A stretch of DNA of 64,000 nucleotides. Source: Utricularia gibba (Eukaryota > Streptophyta > Magnoliopsida > Lamiales > Lentibulariaceae). The position numbers and the translations under genes are program-made. The stretch covers positions 868,001-932,000 of the forward strand of contig NEEC01000016.1 of NCBI GenBank assembly GCA_002189035.1, read 5' to 3'. The notes beneath the pieces are model-generated. The model saw nothing but the letters and a program-made list of their open reading frames with translations, searched no databases and was not told where the DNA came from. This document shows, one piece after another, positions 4,481-58,005 of the stretch (positions are counted from its first letter, which is position 1; each line of letters opens with the position of its first letter).

Positions 4481-5508
4481 TCAGTAGATTCTAACCTTCT
4501 TTGCCACATCCGCAGCATTGTATTCAGGGGACAGGGCGATAAACGCCTTCTTCTTACCTTCTGGTGTCATCAAGGTATTCACCCTCTTGATACTTACACC
4601 CAAAAGCTTCTTCATTGCTTCTTTGATTTCAATCTTATCAGAGCGCTTATCGACCATGAACACCAATGTGTTCCTCTCCACCATTTCCTTTTGGGCCGCC
4701 TCTGTCCTCACAGGGTACTTTATGACTTCTGTTATGTCAACCTTGAGGCTCCGAGACACAGCAGCAGCAGCAGCACGCTTTGTGGATTTCTTCTCCTTCA
4801 CATTGGATGATTCGGTGGCATCTTCAATCTTCAGCTCTAGAGAATCCGGGGCAAAAATGAGCTGGGATCTCGTATCGGGCTCGGCATATTTTGCATCGGA
4901 GTACGTAGCCTCGAAAGTAGAAAGATCATCCTTGGAAGAAGCCTGAAGAACTAACAAAACCATATAACATCGATTTGAACCATAGGAAACTGTTTAATCA
5001 AGATAAAAGCACCTTCTGGGAAAAATGAAATGAAGAAGCGTAAGGGCGACTGAGTTTCCCTGAAACTGAGGTCCTCCAAGAGAGCGATGGAAATCCCTGA
5101 GGGAGCGCCGAGATCTCACCGCCAGTGGGTGGAAGAGAAACCACTGTACGATTGAAGTATCTTATCTTAATCACAATACATGTTTGAGAACGGGGATAAC
5201 GTAGTCGGGTTTTCACAGATAACAACAAAAAAAAAAAAAAAAAAAAAAAAGCTGCCGCAAAGGCGTGCACGACGAACCCTATCCGCAGATTTCAGACGCA
5301 CATCTACTGTTAGCTTCAAGAAATCGAAATGGCGCAGAAACATCGACCGTCTCCGGGAAAATTAAACCAGGAGAATCAAACCAAACAACTCGAAATCCAG
5401 TAGTATTGGAGGAAGAAAGACTTTACCTGGAGGAGAAGGCGAAGATGACGAAAGGATGGATAGAGCAAAGGAGCCAGACGGGACGACTAACCCTAAAGCT
5501 CCAGCCAT
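4481..5508 (-). CDS. Ribosomal protein uL23, eukaryotic/archaeal type with organelle-like leader
   Basis: Three exons on the minus strand (5508-5427, 5143-5013, 4942-4481) join in phase to 224 aa. The C-terminal ~85 residues are a uL23/L23a domain of cytosolic (not bacterial) type: VIKYPVRTEAAQKE, NTLVFMVDKRSDKI, KRVNTLMTPEGKKKA, NAADVAKKVRIY. The N-terminus is not the Lys-rich tail of cytosolic L23a. It starts MAGALGLVVPSGSFALSILS and continues Ser/Pro-rich through exon 2 (LPQGFPSLSWRTSVSGKLSR), poor in acidic residues, as in a transit peptide, followed by an acidic linker. Spinach plastid ribosomes are known to use a nuclear L23 of cytosolic origin, so I infer a plastid (less likely mitochondrial) protein. 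Intron 1 holds a long homopolymer near 5227-5250. Confidence 0.8.
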
Positions 5509-5645
5509 TGCACTTGCACCGAAGGGGAAGGTGTTCGTACCGTTGAAGAGGCAAATAATAACTGTGGAATATGTAGTTAATAATTAAAAAAATAAAACAA
5601 TATTAGAGGGCAGAAGGGCAGCAGGAGGGAGGAGGAGGAGGCGCG
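5509..5645. promoter_or_regulatory. Compact bidirectional promoter, uL23 / FYVE protein
   Basis: Only 137 bases separate the start codons of the divergent uL23 (minus) and FYVE (plus) genes, so both 5' leaders and core promoters share this space or overlap. It contains a short AT-rich core (about 5560-5605) and a purine-rich GGAGG run just before the plus-strand ATG. No classical TATA box is evident. Confidence 0.6.
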
Positions 5646-8600
5646 ATGTTGGAGAAGATTGGATTGCCGCCGAAGCCATCTCTGAGGGGTAACAGTTGGG
5701 TCGTCGATGCGTCGCATTGCCAAGGCTGTTCCTCGCAGTTCTCCTTCATCAATCGCAAGGTCTGCTAGAGTCTTCGATTTCGCTTTCAATTCAATTCCCT
5801 TTTTCCTTGATTACTCGTATCTTTGAGCTTTCCGTTGGTCATCTTGGATGGCCAGTGGCTTACGGTACCGCCGTCGGTGGATAATGGAAGATCACGCATC
5901 ATTTGAGCTAGTGAATCACCAGTTCTTGTTAGATTCACTCTGATGATCACATGTCTCATTGTGTTTTCAGCATCATTGTCGAAGATGTGGGGGGATCTTC
6001 TGTGGTAACTGCACTCGCCACAGAATTATCTTGCGTGGACAGGGTGATTCGCCAGTGCGCATTTGTGATCCCTGCAAAAATTTAGAAGAGGCGGCACGAT
6101 TCGAAAATCGGAATCGATACAAAAGCAAACCTTCGAAAGGTAGCTTCCTTGTTCGTCTACATGCATCTGGATTTCATCTCTACCTTGCTTTCGCTGCCTT
6201 ATGGATGAGAAATTCGCGTTGCTCTGTTCAGAGATGAGTTAAGCTAAGTAACCCCTCTCTGTAAGTTGTTTTGCTCTACTCTGTGTGTATATGAGATTCT
6301 GGTAAGCTGCAACTGTTAAGGGGCATCTTCTGAAACACACAAGTGGAAATGAGATGTTTTGAGCAGTAGCCATTACTTTTCTCCAGTCCCTTCTCTGACT
6401 AAATTCCTTGTTTGTCCCATTCTCAGGAGCTTCTGGAGTTGCTTCCCAGAAAGAAGATGACATGTTGAATGACACGGCGTCGAAGCTAGTTGTCGGATCA
6501 TCTTCTTCCTCAGATCAGGCATCATCGGAACTTGAAGGTGAAACCCCCGCGAGATTGCGAGAGAAGGCCTTGGAGGAGAAGAAAAACTATAGGATATTAA
6601 AAGATGAAGGGAAATCTGAGGATGCCATGAAAGCTTTTAAACGGGGGAAGGAACTGGAGAGGCAGGCCGCAGCACTGGAGATCTCCCTGCGGAAAAATCG
6701 AAAAAAAGCTTTATCCTCCGGTGCAGTGGATGACACACAAGATATTAAGAATCATTTTAGAGCAGCCACAGAAAAAATTACACCCTCATTGGGTAAGAAG
6801 AGTAAAGAGAAAGAGGATCTCTCTGCTGAACTTAGAGAATTGGGTTGGTCAGATTTAGATCTTCATGAGGGTGAGAAGAAACCATCCGCATCAACTGTGG
6901 AGGGTGAGCTCTCTTCATTAGTTCAGGAGGTTTTTCCTGAACCTTATAAACCGAAGCCTGCCATTACGGCTGATAGATCTCTGGTCCTTGTTCATAAGAA
7001 AAAGGCTCTTGAACTGAAGCGAGCTGGGAATCTTTCTGAAGCCAAAGAAGAACTGAAGAAGGCGAAGGTCCTTGAGAGGAAAATAGAGGAGGAAGAACTG
7101 TTGGGTGGTGCTGATGATTCTGATGATGAGCTCTCTTCACTGATTCGAAGCATGGACGCTGAACCTGAAAAGTTCAATATTGGGACTGATATTGATAATA
7201 TTTCTGGCCTTGCGGATGACTTCGATATTGATGGGAATTTTGAAGTCACTGAAGAAGACATGGAAGATCCTGATATGGCTTCTGCTCTAAAATCATTAGG
7301 TTGGGTTGAAGAATCCATCGATATCCAAGTGAAGGCTTCGTCAGTTCAGTCATCAGAAAGAGATTTTCTAAATCAGAAGAGGGCTGATGGAAGGGAACAT
7401 GAGACAAGTGTTTCGCATGGAGGTAGCTATCCAGCACAAAAACTTCCATCAAGGAGTAAAATTATGATTCAGAAAGACCTCATTGCTGTAAAAAAGAGAG
7501 CTCTAACTCTGAAGAGAGAGGGTAGATTTGATGAGTCGGAGCAAGAATTGAAGAAGGCTAGGGTTCTCGAGGCAGAACTTGAGGAATTCAGTAAAGCTTC
7601 TGCACATGGACGGGCAAGTTCAGGCACTGACATGAACATCAGTGATGAAGAGGTAGCTGAGGATGATGCCGATCAAGTGACGGATCAAGATATGCACGAT
7701 CCTACTTATCTCGCTCTCTTGAAGAACATGGGATGGGAGGATGAATATGCCACTGCACAGGCTCAGCCATCTACATCGCAAAAAGCTGCTGCACCTATTG
7801 TGTCTAATAAAAATGAAGTCACGAGCACTGGATTAACAGCACATTATGCTGGTGATTATCTGACCCCTGGAAAAACTAAGAAGGAAATTCAGAGTGACCT
7901 TTTGGCGCTGAAAAGGAAGGCTCTTACCCTAAGGCGGCAAGGAGAGACCGACTCTGCAGATGAAGTACTGGAAACTGCGAGGGCATTAGAGCTACAGTTG
8001 CAGGAGCTTGAAAAGCAAACAAAACAAGTTCCAAATAAAAATGTGGAGAACCAGTCAAAGGAACCACAGTTACCAGACAAGGTTACAGTTGTGAAACCTG
8101 AACAAATGGCTCCCCACGGGGAGATATCACAGACACAGCAACCGGAGCTGCCTTCTCATCCACCAGATTCATCTCCAAATAAGAATAGCTTATCACAAGA
8201 AATCCTATCTCACAAGAGGAAGGCAGTTGCCTTGAAGAGAGAAGGGAAACTTTCCGAAGCCAAGGAGGAGCTCCGGCTAGCAAAGCTTTTAGAGAAGCAG
8301 GCAGATGTCGCCACGAGTCAGGTTACGAGTTCTGATTCTGATGCCTCCGGCGTACGTAACAAAGAAACAAGTTCGCCTAATCCATCATCCAGCCATGAGA
8401 GGGTTTCCAATACCGACTCTTTAACCTCCGATGTTCCTAGAAAAGAAAAGGTTTCACCTATTACATCAAGTCGTGAGAGGTTCAAAGTGCAGCAGGAGTC
8501 ACTTGCCCACAAGCGCCAAGCTCTAAAGCTTAGAAGAGAAGGTAAAATCACTGAAGCTGAGGCTGAATTAGAGCTGGCAAAATCTCTAGAATCCCGTTTA

Positions 8601-8942
8601 CAAGAGCTGGATTCTGCAAATTCCTTGGATTCTTCCAAAGGTGTGGATGAGGTGGAGGATTTTCTTGATCCTCAGTTGTTGTCTGCACTGCAGTCAATTG
8701 GATTTGAAGATCTCGGGATCGCGCCTCACAGCAAAGAAACAGATCAGAGCAAAGATAGTACTAGAAGTGGTGGAGCAGGAGCAAAAGCAGATACAGAGGC
8801 AGCGGACTTAGCTGAACGAATCAAGTCGGAGAAGCTAATGGCAGTTAACTTAAAACGCGCTGGAAAGCAAACAGAAGCCTTGGCTGCCTTGAGACGAGCT
8901 AAGATGTATGAAAAGAAGTTGCATTCTCTAGATGCACGCTAG
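5646..8942 (+). CDS. FYVE zinc-finger protein with seven DM14-like helical repeats
   Basis: Three exons (5646-5759, 5971-6139, 6427-8942) encode 932 aa. Residues ~18-75 form a FYVE finger: WVVD at the start, CQGC, KHHCRRCGG, FCGNC, VRICDPC, so PI3P binding is expected. The rest is one large exon with seven ~40-residue Lys/Glu/Leu-rich helical hairpins at about 136-179, 278-317, 444-482, 584-625, 685-724, 783-825 and 890-932, for example HKKKALELKRAGNLSEAKEE. They look like DM14 repeats, known from CC2D1A/Lgd, where they bind ESCRT-III. Acidic linkers carry a repeated motif, e.g. DPDMASALKSLGW and DPTYLALLKNMGW. Similar to the uncharacterised Arabidopsis FYVE protein At1g61690. The endosomal role is inference. 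Confidence 0.85.
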
Positions 8943-9071: not shown

Positions 9072-11345
9072 CTAGTTCACTGAAATTGCCTTTTCTCGTT
9101 TTCTTCTCATTTCTGATCCCAACAACTCTGCCATGATATATATGTCCTTAGACAAGGGATGAGATCTATCACCTGACGAAAAACCATGCAAGTCTACTGA
9201 ATTACCAACGTCTGCCCAACTAAATCCTATTTCTTTGGTGACTTGCTTCTGCCTCATCAATCTCCTCAGTTTGGCAACCTTCTCCCACTTACCCTGCTCG
9301 GCAAACAAGTTGGACATCAAGATATAAGATCCTGATTCCTTTGGTTGCATATCAATCAAAGCATTGGATATACGTGATGCCATCTCGACTTCTCCGTAAA
9401 TCTTACACGCCCCAAGTAGGCTTTGCAGAACAGATACTCCTGGCCCGCCTGGAATGCCATCTAAAAATTCTTCAGCCTCCTTCAAACGCCCATCTCTTCC
9501 TAACATGTCCACTACACAAGAATAATGCTCAGCAGATGGCTCAACATAGTGGTTTTTCACCATTGATTTGAAGATCTCCACTCCCATATCTATCATTCTG
9601 TTGTGACCACATGATGCTAGTACAGAAAGAAACGTTATTGCGTCTGGTCGGACACCTTCATTTATCATCTGCTTAAAGCAAGTTATAACTGATTCATGGT
9701 CACCATGCCTTGAATGAGCAGAGATCATAGCTGTCCAAGCAACTTGGGTTCTATTTGTCAACTCATTGAATATCTTCAAGGAATCAGATATGCTCCCACG
9801 CTTTGAATACATATCAAGGAGAGCACCAGAGACGATTGAATGAAAATTCAGTCCAAGCTTGTTTAAATAACCATGGCATCTCTGTCCCTGTTTCAGAGAG
9901 ACAGATTCTGAAGAAGCAATAGCATGCAAAACACTGCCAAAGGTATAAGGGTTAGGTGTTAATTCTTCTGAAGCAAGAAAGAACGTGTGCAGAGCTTCTT
10001 TGTACATTCCATTCAGCGAATGAGCAGATATCAAAGCATTCCAAGAAATGATGTCTCTACAGTTTATCTCCTCAAACACCTTCAAGCAATCCTCCACGAA
10101 ACCAAACTTACCATACATGGTAATGAAACTATTTGCTACATTAACATGAGAGACAAAATTTGACCCTATACAAAACCCATGGACAATTTGGCCTTCAACA
10201 ACAGTTTCTTGCTTTGTGATGGCATGAATTAATCCAATAAAAGTGACATCATTTGGGGAAACCCCTTCTCTGATCATTTTCTTAAAAAAATCCATGGCAT
10301 CACTTTCCATTATTGACAGCAATGTTGTCCAGGAAACTACATTAGGGTCAACAATACTCTCAAAGATCAATGCTGCGTCTCCATCAAGATCAGACTTGAA
10401 ATACATTGACATCAAGACATTACCAACCGAAACATGAGTTTCGTATCCTAGCTTCACAGCTAGACAATGCACCTGTCTCCCGAAATTTAAGTTTTTATCT
10501 TGACCACATGCTGAAATAACGCTGGAGAATGAAATGTGATCAGGCTTCACCTCTCCCTTCACCATGTCAATAAATACACAAATGGTTTCCCAGGCACATC
10601 TACCATTCTGTGCATAACCAGATAAAATTGCATTCCAAGAGACCACATCTTTATGATGCATCTCCTTGAAGAGTTGATCAGCAAATGAAATTTCCTCACA
10701 CTTCGAATATAAAGTCACCAGAGCATTTCCAACAAAGATTTCCATATGGAAACCAAGTTTCAGAACGAGGCAATGCAGTTGCCAACCGAAATCAAAATGC
10801 AGACCATCTGCACAATGCGCCAAGGCACTAGAAAACGTCACGGCATCAAACTGAAACCCGGCTGAATGCATCTGATGAGTAAAAAAAAGAGCATCTTTAC
10901 TCTCTTCAAACCCTGATAAGATTGTATTATAAGAAACCGTATCAGGGTATTCCAAGCTATAAAAAATTCGAAAAGCCCGCGTTATATCCTGGGACCTACA
11001 ATAGAACCCCATCAAAGAATTACACACGCAAACAAAATTCATGAAACCAGACACAAGCGCAAAACTGTGAATCTGAAAACCAAGTTCCCTCCGAGCAAGA
11101 CAAGCTTTCGAAGCGAGCGCGATCGCCACCTCATCCACACTCCCCATTCGGACATGTTTCCTGAAGACATCAAGCGCTTCATTGCTTCGATTTGCGCGCA
11201 TGAGATTAGACATGAGGCGGTGAAGGGTAACAAGCCGTGGCTTAGTAATTTCGTCGAACAGGACGTAGCCATTGCCCAACAGGGACTTGTCCCCAAAACA
11301 GGACTGACTAACAGATGATATGTTGCGCGCTAAGCGGGATATCAT
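9072..11345 (-). CDS. Pentatricopeptide repeat protein, PLS class, E+ type
   Basis: A single-exon gene of 757 aa, as most plant PPR genes. Repeats run from about residue 35 to 620 in the P-L-S pattern (DVVSWNAILSGYAQNGR, ALVTLYSKCEEISFADQLF), then E and E+ motifs (PSAEHYSCVVDMLGRDGRLK; FSWADVGNSVDLHGFSSGDR). There is no DYW domain. PLS-E+ proteins act as site recognition factors for C-to-U RNA editing in organelles. The start MISRLARNISSVSQ is Arg/Ser-rich and fits mitochondrial targeting. The best match I recall is Arabidopsis At4g32430 (GRS1), a mitochondrial editing factor of nearly the same length; orthology should be confirmed. Convergent with the FYVE gene, with only 129 bases between stops. 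Confidence 0.88.
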   Translation of the reverse strand: MISRLARNISSVSQSCFGDKSLLGNGYVLFDEITKPRLVTLHRLMSNLMRANRSNEALDVFRKHVRMGSVDEVAIALASKACLARRELGFQIHSFALVSGFMNFVCVCNSLMGFYCRSQDITRAFRIFYSLEYPDTVSYNTILSGFEESKDALFFTHQMHSAGFQFDAVTFSSALAHCADGLHFDFGWQLHCLVLKLGFHMEIFVGNALVTLYSKCEEISFADQLFKEMHHKDVVSWNAILSGYAQNGRCAWETICVFIDMVKGEVKPDHISFSSVISACGQDKNLNFGRQVHCLAVKLGYETHVSVGNVLMSMYFKSDLDGDAALIFESIVDPNVVSWTTLLSIMESDAMDFFKKMIREGVSPNDVTFIGLIHAITKQETVVEGQIVHGFCIGSNFVSHVNVANSFITMYGKFGFVEDCLKVFEEINCRDIISWNALISAHSLNGMYKEALHTFFLASEELTPNPYTFGSVLHAIASSESVSLKQGQRCHGYLNKLGLNFHSIVSGALLDMYSKRGSISDSLKIFNELTNRTQVAWTAMISAHSRHGDHESVITCFKQMINEGVRPDAITFLSVLASCGHNRMIDMGVEIFKSMVKNHYVEPSAEHYSCVVDMLGRDGRLKEAEEFLDGIPGGPGVSVLQSLLGACKIYGEVEMASRISNALIDMQPKESGSYILMSNLFAEQGKWEKVAKLRRLMRQKQVTKEIGFSWADVGNSVDLHGFSSGDRSHPLSKDIYIMAELLGSEMRRKREKAISVN

Positions 11346-11692
11346 CTGGATTTACCCTGTAACCGCAAATCACCTTTCTCCTCCATGCACACACACACCT
11401 TTAACCTGCACCTGCATCTTCCAAGTTCCATCTAACCGCCTCCGCCTCCGGTTGCATTTTTTTAAAAAAAACCTTGTAAACAAATATCAAAGTTTAGATG
11501 CAATAAATTAACAAAAAATATTTTTTTTTAATTTCACAATATATAAATGTATAATCAATAAAATAAACTGAAATTTACTTTTTTAATAATATTTAGTTTT
11601 GATCGGATTAATAAATTGAATTTCAAATTTAACAATGAATTTATACACTATTTTCACAAAATAAAAATAGTATTTTGTGTACAGACAAAATG
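11346..11692. other. Short intergenic region between PPR and BAM1 genes
   Basis: Upstream of the PPR start and downstream of the BAM1 stop. It is strongly AT-rich from 11460 onward, and no gene is seen. The C-rich first 100 bases are likely the PPR 5' leader. Confidence 0.5.
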
Positions 11693-55221: not shown

Positions 55222-56919
55222 CCGCTCACGTCCGGCTCTTCATTCAAAAGTACAACAGTAGGGTTTTTTCTTTTATGCCTATGAGCCAATTTACGTATGA
55301 TAACCATGTTTGCTTCCTGCTTCTCGTGCCTTGTGGTCTACTACGTTGTTGCTGAAACTCCATGCCTACTTACATGAGTATAATATCTGCAATAATTGTT
55401 GGGTTGCATGCAATTATGTGATCTAAAAAATGGATGAAAAGTCGGTCATCCACAGAGTCCATGGCATGGAAAGTGTTGCAAGAGGAACTCAGGATGACAA
55501 TGAGTTGAGTTGCTTTGGTTGAGTTTCATGAAAATACAAACTCAAACCAATATGGGCACTAAGTTCTGCTTGTTGGTTCAAGATTGATGGATACCTCTAT
55601 ACTAATCATTCCCTTGAAGCATGCCCACTTTTTTCTACTTCAAGACACTCCCTAAATGGACATCAGGAGAGCTCCATCTTCTCCACTCCACTAAGAGGGG
55701 CTTTTGGTGAAATCATGAAGCATCACACCGATCCTGCTTCCAAACGGTTGACCATAATTGTGCTGCGGCAGTCCTCCCAAGTTGTCATCATCATCGCCTT
55801 GCTTCCACAATGATGTTGCCTCTGTCAATCTTCCTGATGGCCAAAGACAATGCGGCGGCTGCTGAATGATGGGTGTCAGTTGGATTTGCATGAAAACGGG
55901 ACTCGCAAGTTTGGTAAAGAAGCTTCGGCGTGAGATTGGGTGTGTCCCATTCTCGTCTCATCTGTCTGGTTGCCCAACACATGTGCAGCCTGCGAGCTTA
56001 GAGAGAAGGATTTGTGATACCAAAACTGCTGTGAAAAGCGAGTGTCTGGTGGCGCGCCCGCATGCGCACACGATTGTGGTTTCTTGATGCCGACTCCATT
56101 ATCACCCCCATCCCCACACCTATCCTCAACCAACCTTCCATCCTTAGTGTTTAGATGCTGCAGAGTATTTTAATTAAATGTTATTTGATAGTAGAATATT
56201 AATATGTTTAAGTAATTGGGTATATATATATACATTCAATTGTAAGGTATATAATAAATAATGTGTTTGATATACGATAATAGAAATTCAATGTATAACA
56301 GTTGAAAAAAATATTTGATATATAATAAAAATATAAAGATCAAGGTTTGAAAGAAGAAATAATATTTGAAAAAATATAAATGATTAAACATGTCTTTATA
56401 TAGATATAATTAGTCCCTTATCTCCATTTGTGTATGTTGTTCACATACTCAAAAAATGAGTATGTAATTGATATGAACATATAAGTCTAACATACATATA
56501 TTAGTTAATCAAACAATAATTTATGTATTAATTTGAATATAAATATTATATAATATACTATCAAATATACTGTTTGACATTTGTGAATTCATTGTATCTA
56601 AACAAAGGATATTAAAATCGAGAGTTTTAAGAGTTTTGGGACATAAAATTATACAAGTGCCTTGTAAATTTCGTGTCACGTTTAGTAAACAAAGTTTGAG
56701 CATGATTCCATCGTGCTCAAGTCCAGGAGTCGGGTGATGGGGGATGGGTGTGTTTGTGTAAGGTTCATTTTTAAAACATGGAGTCTGGAAATGATTTCTT
56801 CTCCATTCCGAGCTCTCGCATGCCGAATCCCACTTTCTGTACTTTGAAGTTTGAACACATATATATATCACACTCTTGTCTACTCTTCCATATAAGATAC
56901 TCTGAACCGCCCCACTGCC
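55222..56919. other. Spacer between LIFEGUARD and SAMDC genes
   Basis: 55222-55680 is probably the LIFEGUARD 3' UTR and plain spacer. 55690-56130 holds coding-like minus-strand frames (separate entry). 56150-56640 is AT-rich with TA repeats near 56221-56234. 56700-56919 is the SAMDC promoter, with a likely TATA region at 56859-56868. Confidence 0.45.
55691..55945 (-). other. Coding-like minus-strand segment, unidentified
   Basis: The minus strand is open for about 85 codons, to a TGA at 55691, with a transcription-factor-tail composition (MQIQLTPIIQQPPHCLWPSG, DDDDNLGGLPQHNYGQPFGS, RIGVMLHDFTKSPS). A second open frame overlaps it upstream to 56133. I find no start, splice pattern or known domain. 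It may be the end of an unannotated gene, a relic, or chance. Confidence 0.25.
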
Positions 56920-58005
56920 ATGGCCGTTTCTGGGTTTGAGGGATTCGAGAAGCGCCTGGAGCTCCGATTCTCCGGCATCATCGACCCGAAAGGGCTCCGG
57001 CTGCTGGACTTCAGGGTGCTGGAGGAAGTTCTGAATGTGGTTCACTGCAGCGTGGTGTCCGCCGTCGGCAACCGGTACGTGGACTCGTACGTGTTGTCGG
57101 AGTCAAGCCTCTTTGTCTACCCTACACGAATCATAATCAAAACATGTGGAACCACGCACCTGCTGGAGTGTGTCACTCTTCTGGTGAACCATGCCGGCGC
57201 CATGGGATTCGCTCTCGCTCGCTGCAGCTACTCCCGCGGCAGCTTCTTTTTCCCCCAAGCTCAGCCCTTTCCTCACACCAGCTTCGAACAGGAAGTCTCG
57301 TTCCTGGAACGGAACCTGCCCGGAAATGTTTCCCGTCGGAAGGCCGCGGTTTTGAACTCCGGATCTCGCTACAAATGGCATGTTTTCACCGCGTGGGAGC
57401 TGGAAGATGGATTGAATGAAGATTTGTACACGGTGGAGATTTGTATGACGGGGCTCGACCGGGTTCAGGCGGAGAAGTTTTTCCGGGGACCGCAAGATGA
57501 TTGCAGCACCGGCGACTCCCAAGGAAAGGCGATGACGGCGGCGACAGGAATCAGTGAAATCAACAAGAATTCATTGGTTTGCGACTTTGCGTTCGATCCC
57601 TGCGGATACTCAATGAATGGGATCGACGCGAATCGTTATTCCACCATTCACGTCACTCCGGAGGAGGAGTTCAGCTACGCCAGTTTCGAGTGCCTGTGCG
57701 ACGATCGGGATACATTTTCCGAGGTACAAAGCACCACAACCGAATTTAGTAGGTAGCAAAAAAACCCTCCACATTATCGTCCTTGTCACCAGGCTATTTA
57801 TTCTCTACTCAAGGTATTGAAGAATGTGGTGAATGTTTTCCGGCCTGCGGCGGCTTCGGTAGCCATCACATGTCCGCCGGCGGAGTATGAGGTGCCCAAA
57901 ATGGCGGGGCATGCGCTTCGGAAGCTGGGGATGAAGCTCAGCAGCCGAGGAAGAGAAGAGTTTCCCGGCGCCGGAAGTGTTTTCTTTCAGAGCTTTACAA
58001 AGTAG
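56920..58005 (+). CDS. SAMDC: S-adenosylmethionine decarboxylase, SAMDC4/BUD2-like
   Basis: Two exons (56920-57723 and 57814-58005, phase 0) encode 331 aa, shorter than the usual ~360-aa plant SAMDC. The proenzyme self-cleaves to a pyruvoyl enzyme that supplies decarboxylated SAM for spermidine and spermine. Key sites: GFEGFEKRLELRF (catalytic Glu pair), the cleavage site YVLSESSLF with Glu-61/Ser-62, KTCGTT (catalytic Cys-76), FDPCGYSMNG and STIHVTPE (processing Ser and His). The missing internal loop and the C-terminus (REEFPGAGSVFFQSF) resemble SAMDC4/BUD2. No small regulatory uORF of the SAMDC1 type is visible in the short leader. Skipping the intron would stop the protein at TAG 57754, before the last 64 residues. 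Confidence 0.9.

Follow-up and report, generated by a model that had tools for sequence, protein, structure and literature searches.

A nuclear uL23 gene of eukaryotic type with a putative plastid-targeting leader in Utricularia gibba

Introduction

Why should a plant carry, apart from its cytosolic RPL23A genes, another uL23 gene of eukaryotic type whose product begins with a leader resembling an organelle targeting peptide, and in which compartment would such a protein serve? The question is raised by a locus on the minus strand at 5508-4481 of the window, by which we mean the whole stretch of 64,000 nucleotides of Utricularia gibba DNA analysed here. In our judgement this is probably a functional nuclear gene whose product, a uL23 of the eukaryotic (cytosolic) type, is imported into an organelle, with the plastid as the most likely destination, the targeting being predicted from the composition of the leader. 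In kind, it is likely a further case of the eukaryotic-type plastid uL23 of spinach, Geranium, and Hypericum.

Structure and Surroundings of the Gene

The uL23 gene reported by the first-pass annotation is present as described: three exons joined across GT-AG introns give a stop-free coding sequence of 675 nt, or 224 codons, on the minus strand. The gene is nuclear, since it lies on a nuclear contig of 2.6 Mb (C402). Its start context, GTGCAATGG, is usable, with a purine at −3 and G at +4. Exon 1 (5427..5508), with its ATG in GTGCAATGGC and its donor CCAG/GTAAAG, encodes residues 1-27 and the first base of codon 28, and it is here that the Ser/Pro-rich leader begins. Intron 1 (5144..5426; 283 nt, G+C 0.40) contains a poly-T tract and is followed by exon 2 (5013..5143; G+C 0.53), which encodes residues 28-71, the remainder of the leader, and whose donor, AG/GTGCTT, keeps the frame. 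Intron 2 (4943..5012) is 70 nt long with a G+C of 0.31. The first part of exon 3 (full extent 4481-4942), at 4757..4942, encodes an acidic linker, residues 72-133, which is predicted to be disordered (pLDDT mostly below 50); the uL23 domain, residues 134-224, follows in a single uninterrupted stretch at 4484..4756, and the stop codon occupies 4481..4483. Protein and DNA searches of the contigs of the genome (100.09 Mb in 516 contigs, including a plastid contig, C516, with intact rbcL, and a mitochondrial contig, C515) found one copy of the gene.

A spacer of 137 bp (5509..5645), probably a shared promoter region, separates the gene from a divergent neighbour on the plus strand with its start codon at 5646. 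This neighbour (5646-8942) has an N-terminal Cys-rich FYVE-like finger across two exons and, after it, an 847-aa frame with many repeated KRxALxLKREG-like units and without a Pfam match. On the other side, a convergent neighbour ends at about 4103.

Type and Fold of the uL23 Domain

The C-terminal ~91 residues (134-224) form a complete uL23 domain (Pfam PF00276, E 1.6e-11), whose nearest sequence match is plant 60S uL23 (E 2e-24). It scores much higher with archaeal models and eukaryotic chains than with bacterial ones, and it stands near the archaeal models. A structure model of the product, built with archaeal rows, predicts the uL23 fold at a pLDDT of about 90 with a disordered linker; the modelled domain overlays solved uL23 chains with Z of 17-18, and spinach chloroplast uL23 (5mmi_U) with an rmsd of 1.1 Å over 85 columns at 46% identity. 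By both sequence and predicted fold, this is a uL23 of the eukaryotic/archaeal type. In our wider tree, which includes a yeast row, the eukaryote/archaea split is supported at 97/99 and the gene falls inside the eukaryotes on a long branch. This placement rules out an archaeal origin, for which an identity of ~50% to Asgard uL23 could be cited. Domain searches, fold, and tree together uphold the first-pass assignment to the eukaryotic type.

The cytosolic RPL23A genes of the same plant, found at five loci (L001-L004 and L007, of which some lie on small, possibly duplicate contigs), belong to the same domain family and are the likely source of the new gene, to which they show ~48% identity in the domain. 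They differ from it in having a basic tail and an intron within the domain. All five carry this intron just after VNTLI, and the gene at 5508-4481 lacks it, which suggests a retrocopy or intron loss; a retrocopy would be the simple explanation. As for the tail, a Pfam search of the product gave no match to the basic eukaryotic L23eN, so that the protein is not an ordinary cytosolic RPL23A, and the earlier statement that the basic N-terminal tail of cytosolic L23a has been replaced is borne out.

The Leader and Its Probable Destination

What has taken the place of the tail is a leader that had been described as Ser/Pro-rich and of transit-peptide character, and its composition agrees. Residues 1-71 comprise 18 Ser, 9 Pro, and a single acidic residue, with a pI of 10.3, and no charged residue occurs before residue 37. 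Across all six frames of the 64-kb window there are 2,019 open 71-aa windows, and in none of them do 20 or more Ser+Thr occur together with at most one acidic residue. The linker that follows is acidic, as had been proposed, with a pI of 4.8 over residues 72-131. As far as composition can tell, the leader is more like a plastid transit peptide than a mitochondrial presequence. A comparison of the transit region with PDB gave no match. The same first reading had spoken of captured targeting exons; a donor gene for the leader was sought across the genome by protein and by DNA and none was found, and this part of the proposal is left without support.

Since the cytosol is served by RPL23A and the mitochondrion by uL23m, the plastid is the remaining place for the product. 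The bacterial-type mitochondrial protein is encoded separately, by an orthodox, full-length uL23m gene that lies on C414 and matches plant uL23m at E 6e-56, and the gene at 5508-4481 is therefore not uL23m itself. Plant uL23m (At4g39880) is likewise a nuclear-encoded organelle uL23, but of the bacterial type. It could still be argued that the product is imported into mitochondria, or into mitochondria as well as plastids, and works in the mitoribosome, as plants are known to dual-target organelle ribosomal proteins (PMC6085651) and as the product has a weak amphipathic stretch with Arg/Lys around residues 50-75 (maximal moment 0.37 at residue 58). Against this, a full-length uL23m is already at hand on C414, and the first 36 residues are uncharged with a hydrophobic moment of at most 0.26, unlike a mitochondrial presequence; we consider a mitochondrial role rather improbable, and plastid import the better account.

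The weak point of plastid import is that exons 1 and 2 are predicted from splice signals and composition. If they were a false gene model and the true start lay elsewhere, the product would be either a variant uL23 of the cytosol or a protein acting outside the ribosome. The donor of intron 2 is indeed not strong, and a GTGAGA donor within exon 2 looks stronger, but its use would set exon 3 out of frame. Moreover, exon 3 lacks the basic tail expected of a cytosolic uL23, the composition of the leader is unmatched in the 2,019 open windows, and G+C is 0.47-0.54 in the exons versus 0.31-0.40 in the two introns. It seems to us doubtful, for these reasons, that the leader exons are spurious.

Nor does the gene look like a decaying retrocopy without function, even though its domain lacks the intron typical of the family and its identity to the cytosolic paralogues is only ~48%. 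Compared with the cytosolic copy, differences at codon positions 1, 2, and 3 amount to 0.31, 0.21, and 0.65, with a dN of 0.38 and a saturated dS of ~2.6. Changes biased to third positions, together with the lack of stops, argue for a protein under selection rather than a dead copy; there is no stop or frameshift in 224 codons, and neutral simulations left the domain stop-free at this divergence in 7% of cases. Decay is thus very improbable. The last candidate, a plastid rpl23 moved to the nucleus by intracellular transfer, is refuted by the sequence despite the frequency of such transfers among other plastid ribosomal genes (PMC8429499), as the domain is of the eukaryotic/archaeal rather than the bacterial/plastid type and falls inside the eukaryotes in the tree, and a search with tobacco rpl23 misses the gene.

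Kinship with Spinach Chloroplast uL23

The best-known protein of this kind is spinach uL23c (Q9LWB5; PDB 5mmi, 5h1s, 6eri), the product of a nuclear gene with an N-terminal extension, made as a precursor of 198 aa and matured to 122. Both proteins have a cytosolic-type domain without the bacterial hairpin, and they have in common the derived residues TEAA, GV, EYNA[A/S]xxAKK, and a terminal aromatic residue. They differ in the segment before the domain, which is acidic in the Utricularia protein; the spinach tail (residues 77-104) is disordered. Spinach has lost plastid rpl23 and its uL23c has been seen in the ribosome, a location predicted for the Utricularia product. Nuclear substitutions are also described for Geranium and Hypericum ascyron, where a cytosolic-type RPL23 copy has a predicted plastid transit peptide (PMC8941745, citing Weng 2016).

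How close is the tie to spinach? Overall identity, at 45%, was rejected as evidence, being within the range that independent origin allows. A query made mostly of the residues that depart from plant cytosolic uL23 put spinach chloroplast uL23 at the head of 93 PDB chains, by the small margin of 42.0 versus 39.5 bits. Measured against the cytosolic protein, eight columns are shared with uL23c, where 2.0-4.2 are expected under independence (P 0.002-0.05, depending on the model). A tree with plant and mammal rows joins the two at 95/93, and with the same rows the AU test speaks against a topology in which the gene groups with the cytosolic RPL23A of the same plant (p-AU 0.02). The likeness to the spinach protein claimed at the outset is thus supported by derived residues and by this join. 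The wider tree, on the other hand, does not join them. When independent origin was simulated with site-heterogeneous rates, a false join at 95% support or more arose in 30% of 44 trees, as against 0 of 36 under a homogeneous model, and the tie in the tree can be a long-branch effect. The features in common may reflect common origin, convergence on plastid rRNA, or artefact; a case of independent origin would need no shared descent with uL23c.

Substitution or Coexistence?

It had also been suggested that the gene represents the same kind of substitution as in spinach. Substitution requires that plastid rpl23 be lost, and since the plastomes of relatives list it, this claim is unsupported. The plastome of U. 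reniformis lists rpl23 (2x), of which few transcripts (11) were recorded (PMC5072713); in U. amethystina, it is likewise listed (2x), with transcripts unseen in two of three forms (PMC6940893); and the Genlisea plastome also lists it (2x) (PMC5749785). A survey of carnivorous plants found loss of rpl23 only in Drosera erythrorhiza and reported none for Lentibulariaceae (PMC10731798). By comparison, PMC8941745 describes the plastid gene as replaced in spinach, Geranium, and Hypericum, and plastid rpl23 of Hypericum is a pseudogene.

In the present genome, the tobacco rpl23 search returned only degenerate nuclear copies on C317. A match to rpl2 is likewise missing from the plastid contig, but the parts of C516 that would carry rpl2 and rpl23 read as N, and these missing matches therefore carry no weight. 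The nuclear copies (C317:1635437-1635658 and 1720133-1720521; L008, L009, L043) are two AT-rich, decayed pieces that derive from the plastid rpl2/rpl23 region and contain internal stops. With rpl23 listed throughout the plastomes cited for the family, there may be no vacancy for an imported uL23, and a plastid-bound protein alongside a plastid rpl23 gene, rather than a substitution, is at present the better reading.

Proposed Origin and Meaning

We propose that the gene began as a copy of a cytosolic RPL23A, probably one made from mRNA, given that the intron inside the RPL23A domain is missing from the gene, and that the copied domain came to sit behind exons supplying the leader. The leader would be removed in the stroma, and the mature uL23 would be placed at the tunnel exit of the plastid 50S subunit, either instead of or beside the plastid-encoded protein. 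The bacterial hairpin, which extends into the tunnel, is missing from spinach uL23c (PMC5071890); since the Utricularia product is of the same type, the tunnel of any ribosome carrying it would be wider close to the exit.

In a few known lineages a cytosolic-type protein has taken over from plastid rpl23, and each was observed after the plastid gene had disappeared. If this plant has both uL23 genes, it would catch the intermediate state of replacement, and it would put directly the question of whether two types of uL23 share the tunnel exit, the docking site of chaperones and targeting factors. The interest of the gene rises if both are active. It is tempting to go further, although we hold the following to be unlikely: the eukaryotic-type, plastid-imported uL23 would have arisen once, before the split of Caryophyllales and asterids, and have persisted beside plastid-encoded rpl23 to the present. 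In some plants, plastid ribosomes could then be built with one or the other uL23, the two differing in evolutionary origin, and the "substitutions" of spinach and the others would be late losses of a redundant gene.

Other Features of the Window and Genome

On the minus strand of the window, 9072-11351 holds an intact 759-aa frame for a pentatricopeptide-repeat protein with E and E+ motifs, of the organelle RNA-editing type. A plus-strand frame for S-adenosylmethionine decarboxylase (56896-57756) covers positions 3-270 of the 343 of the family and then meets a stop, the C-terminal part not being in frame, and it is possibly frameshifted or a pseudogene. On the mitochondrial contig, cox1 (C515:183547-185854; L053, L054) is split by an intron in which an endonuclease-like frame continues exon 1. 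Two cysteines stand next to each other in the cox1 sequence (LLLLCCSALVEV); this is the CC motif of Utricularia cox1, reported as a change in Utricularia and in some Genlisea (PMC3141634).
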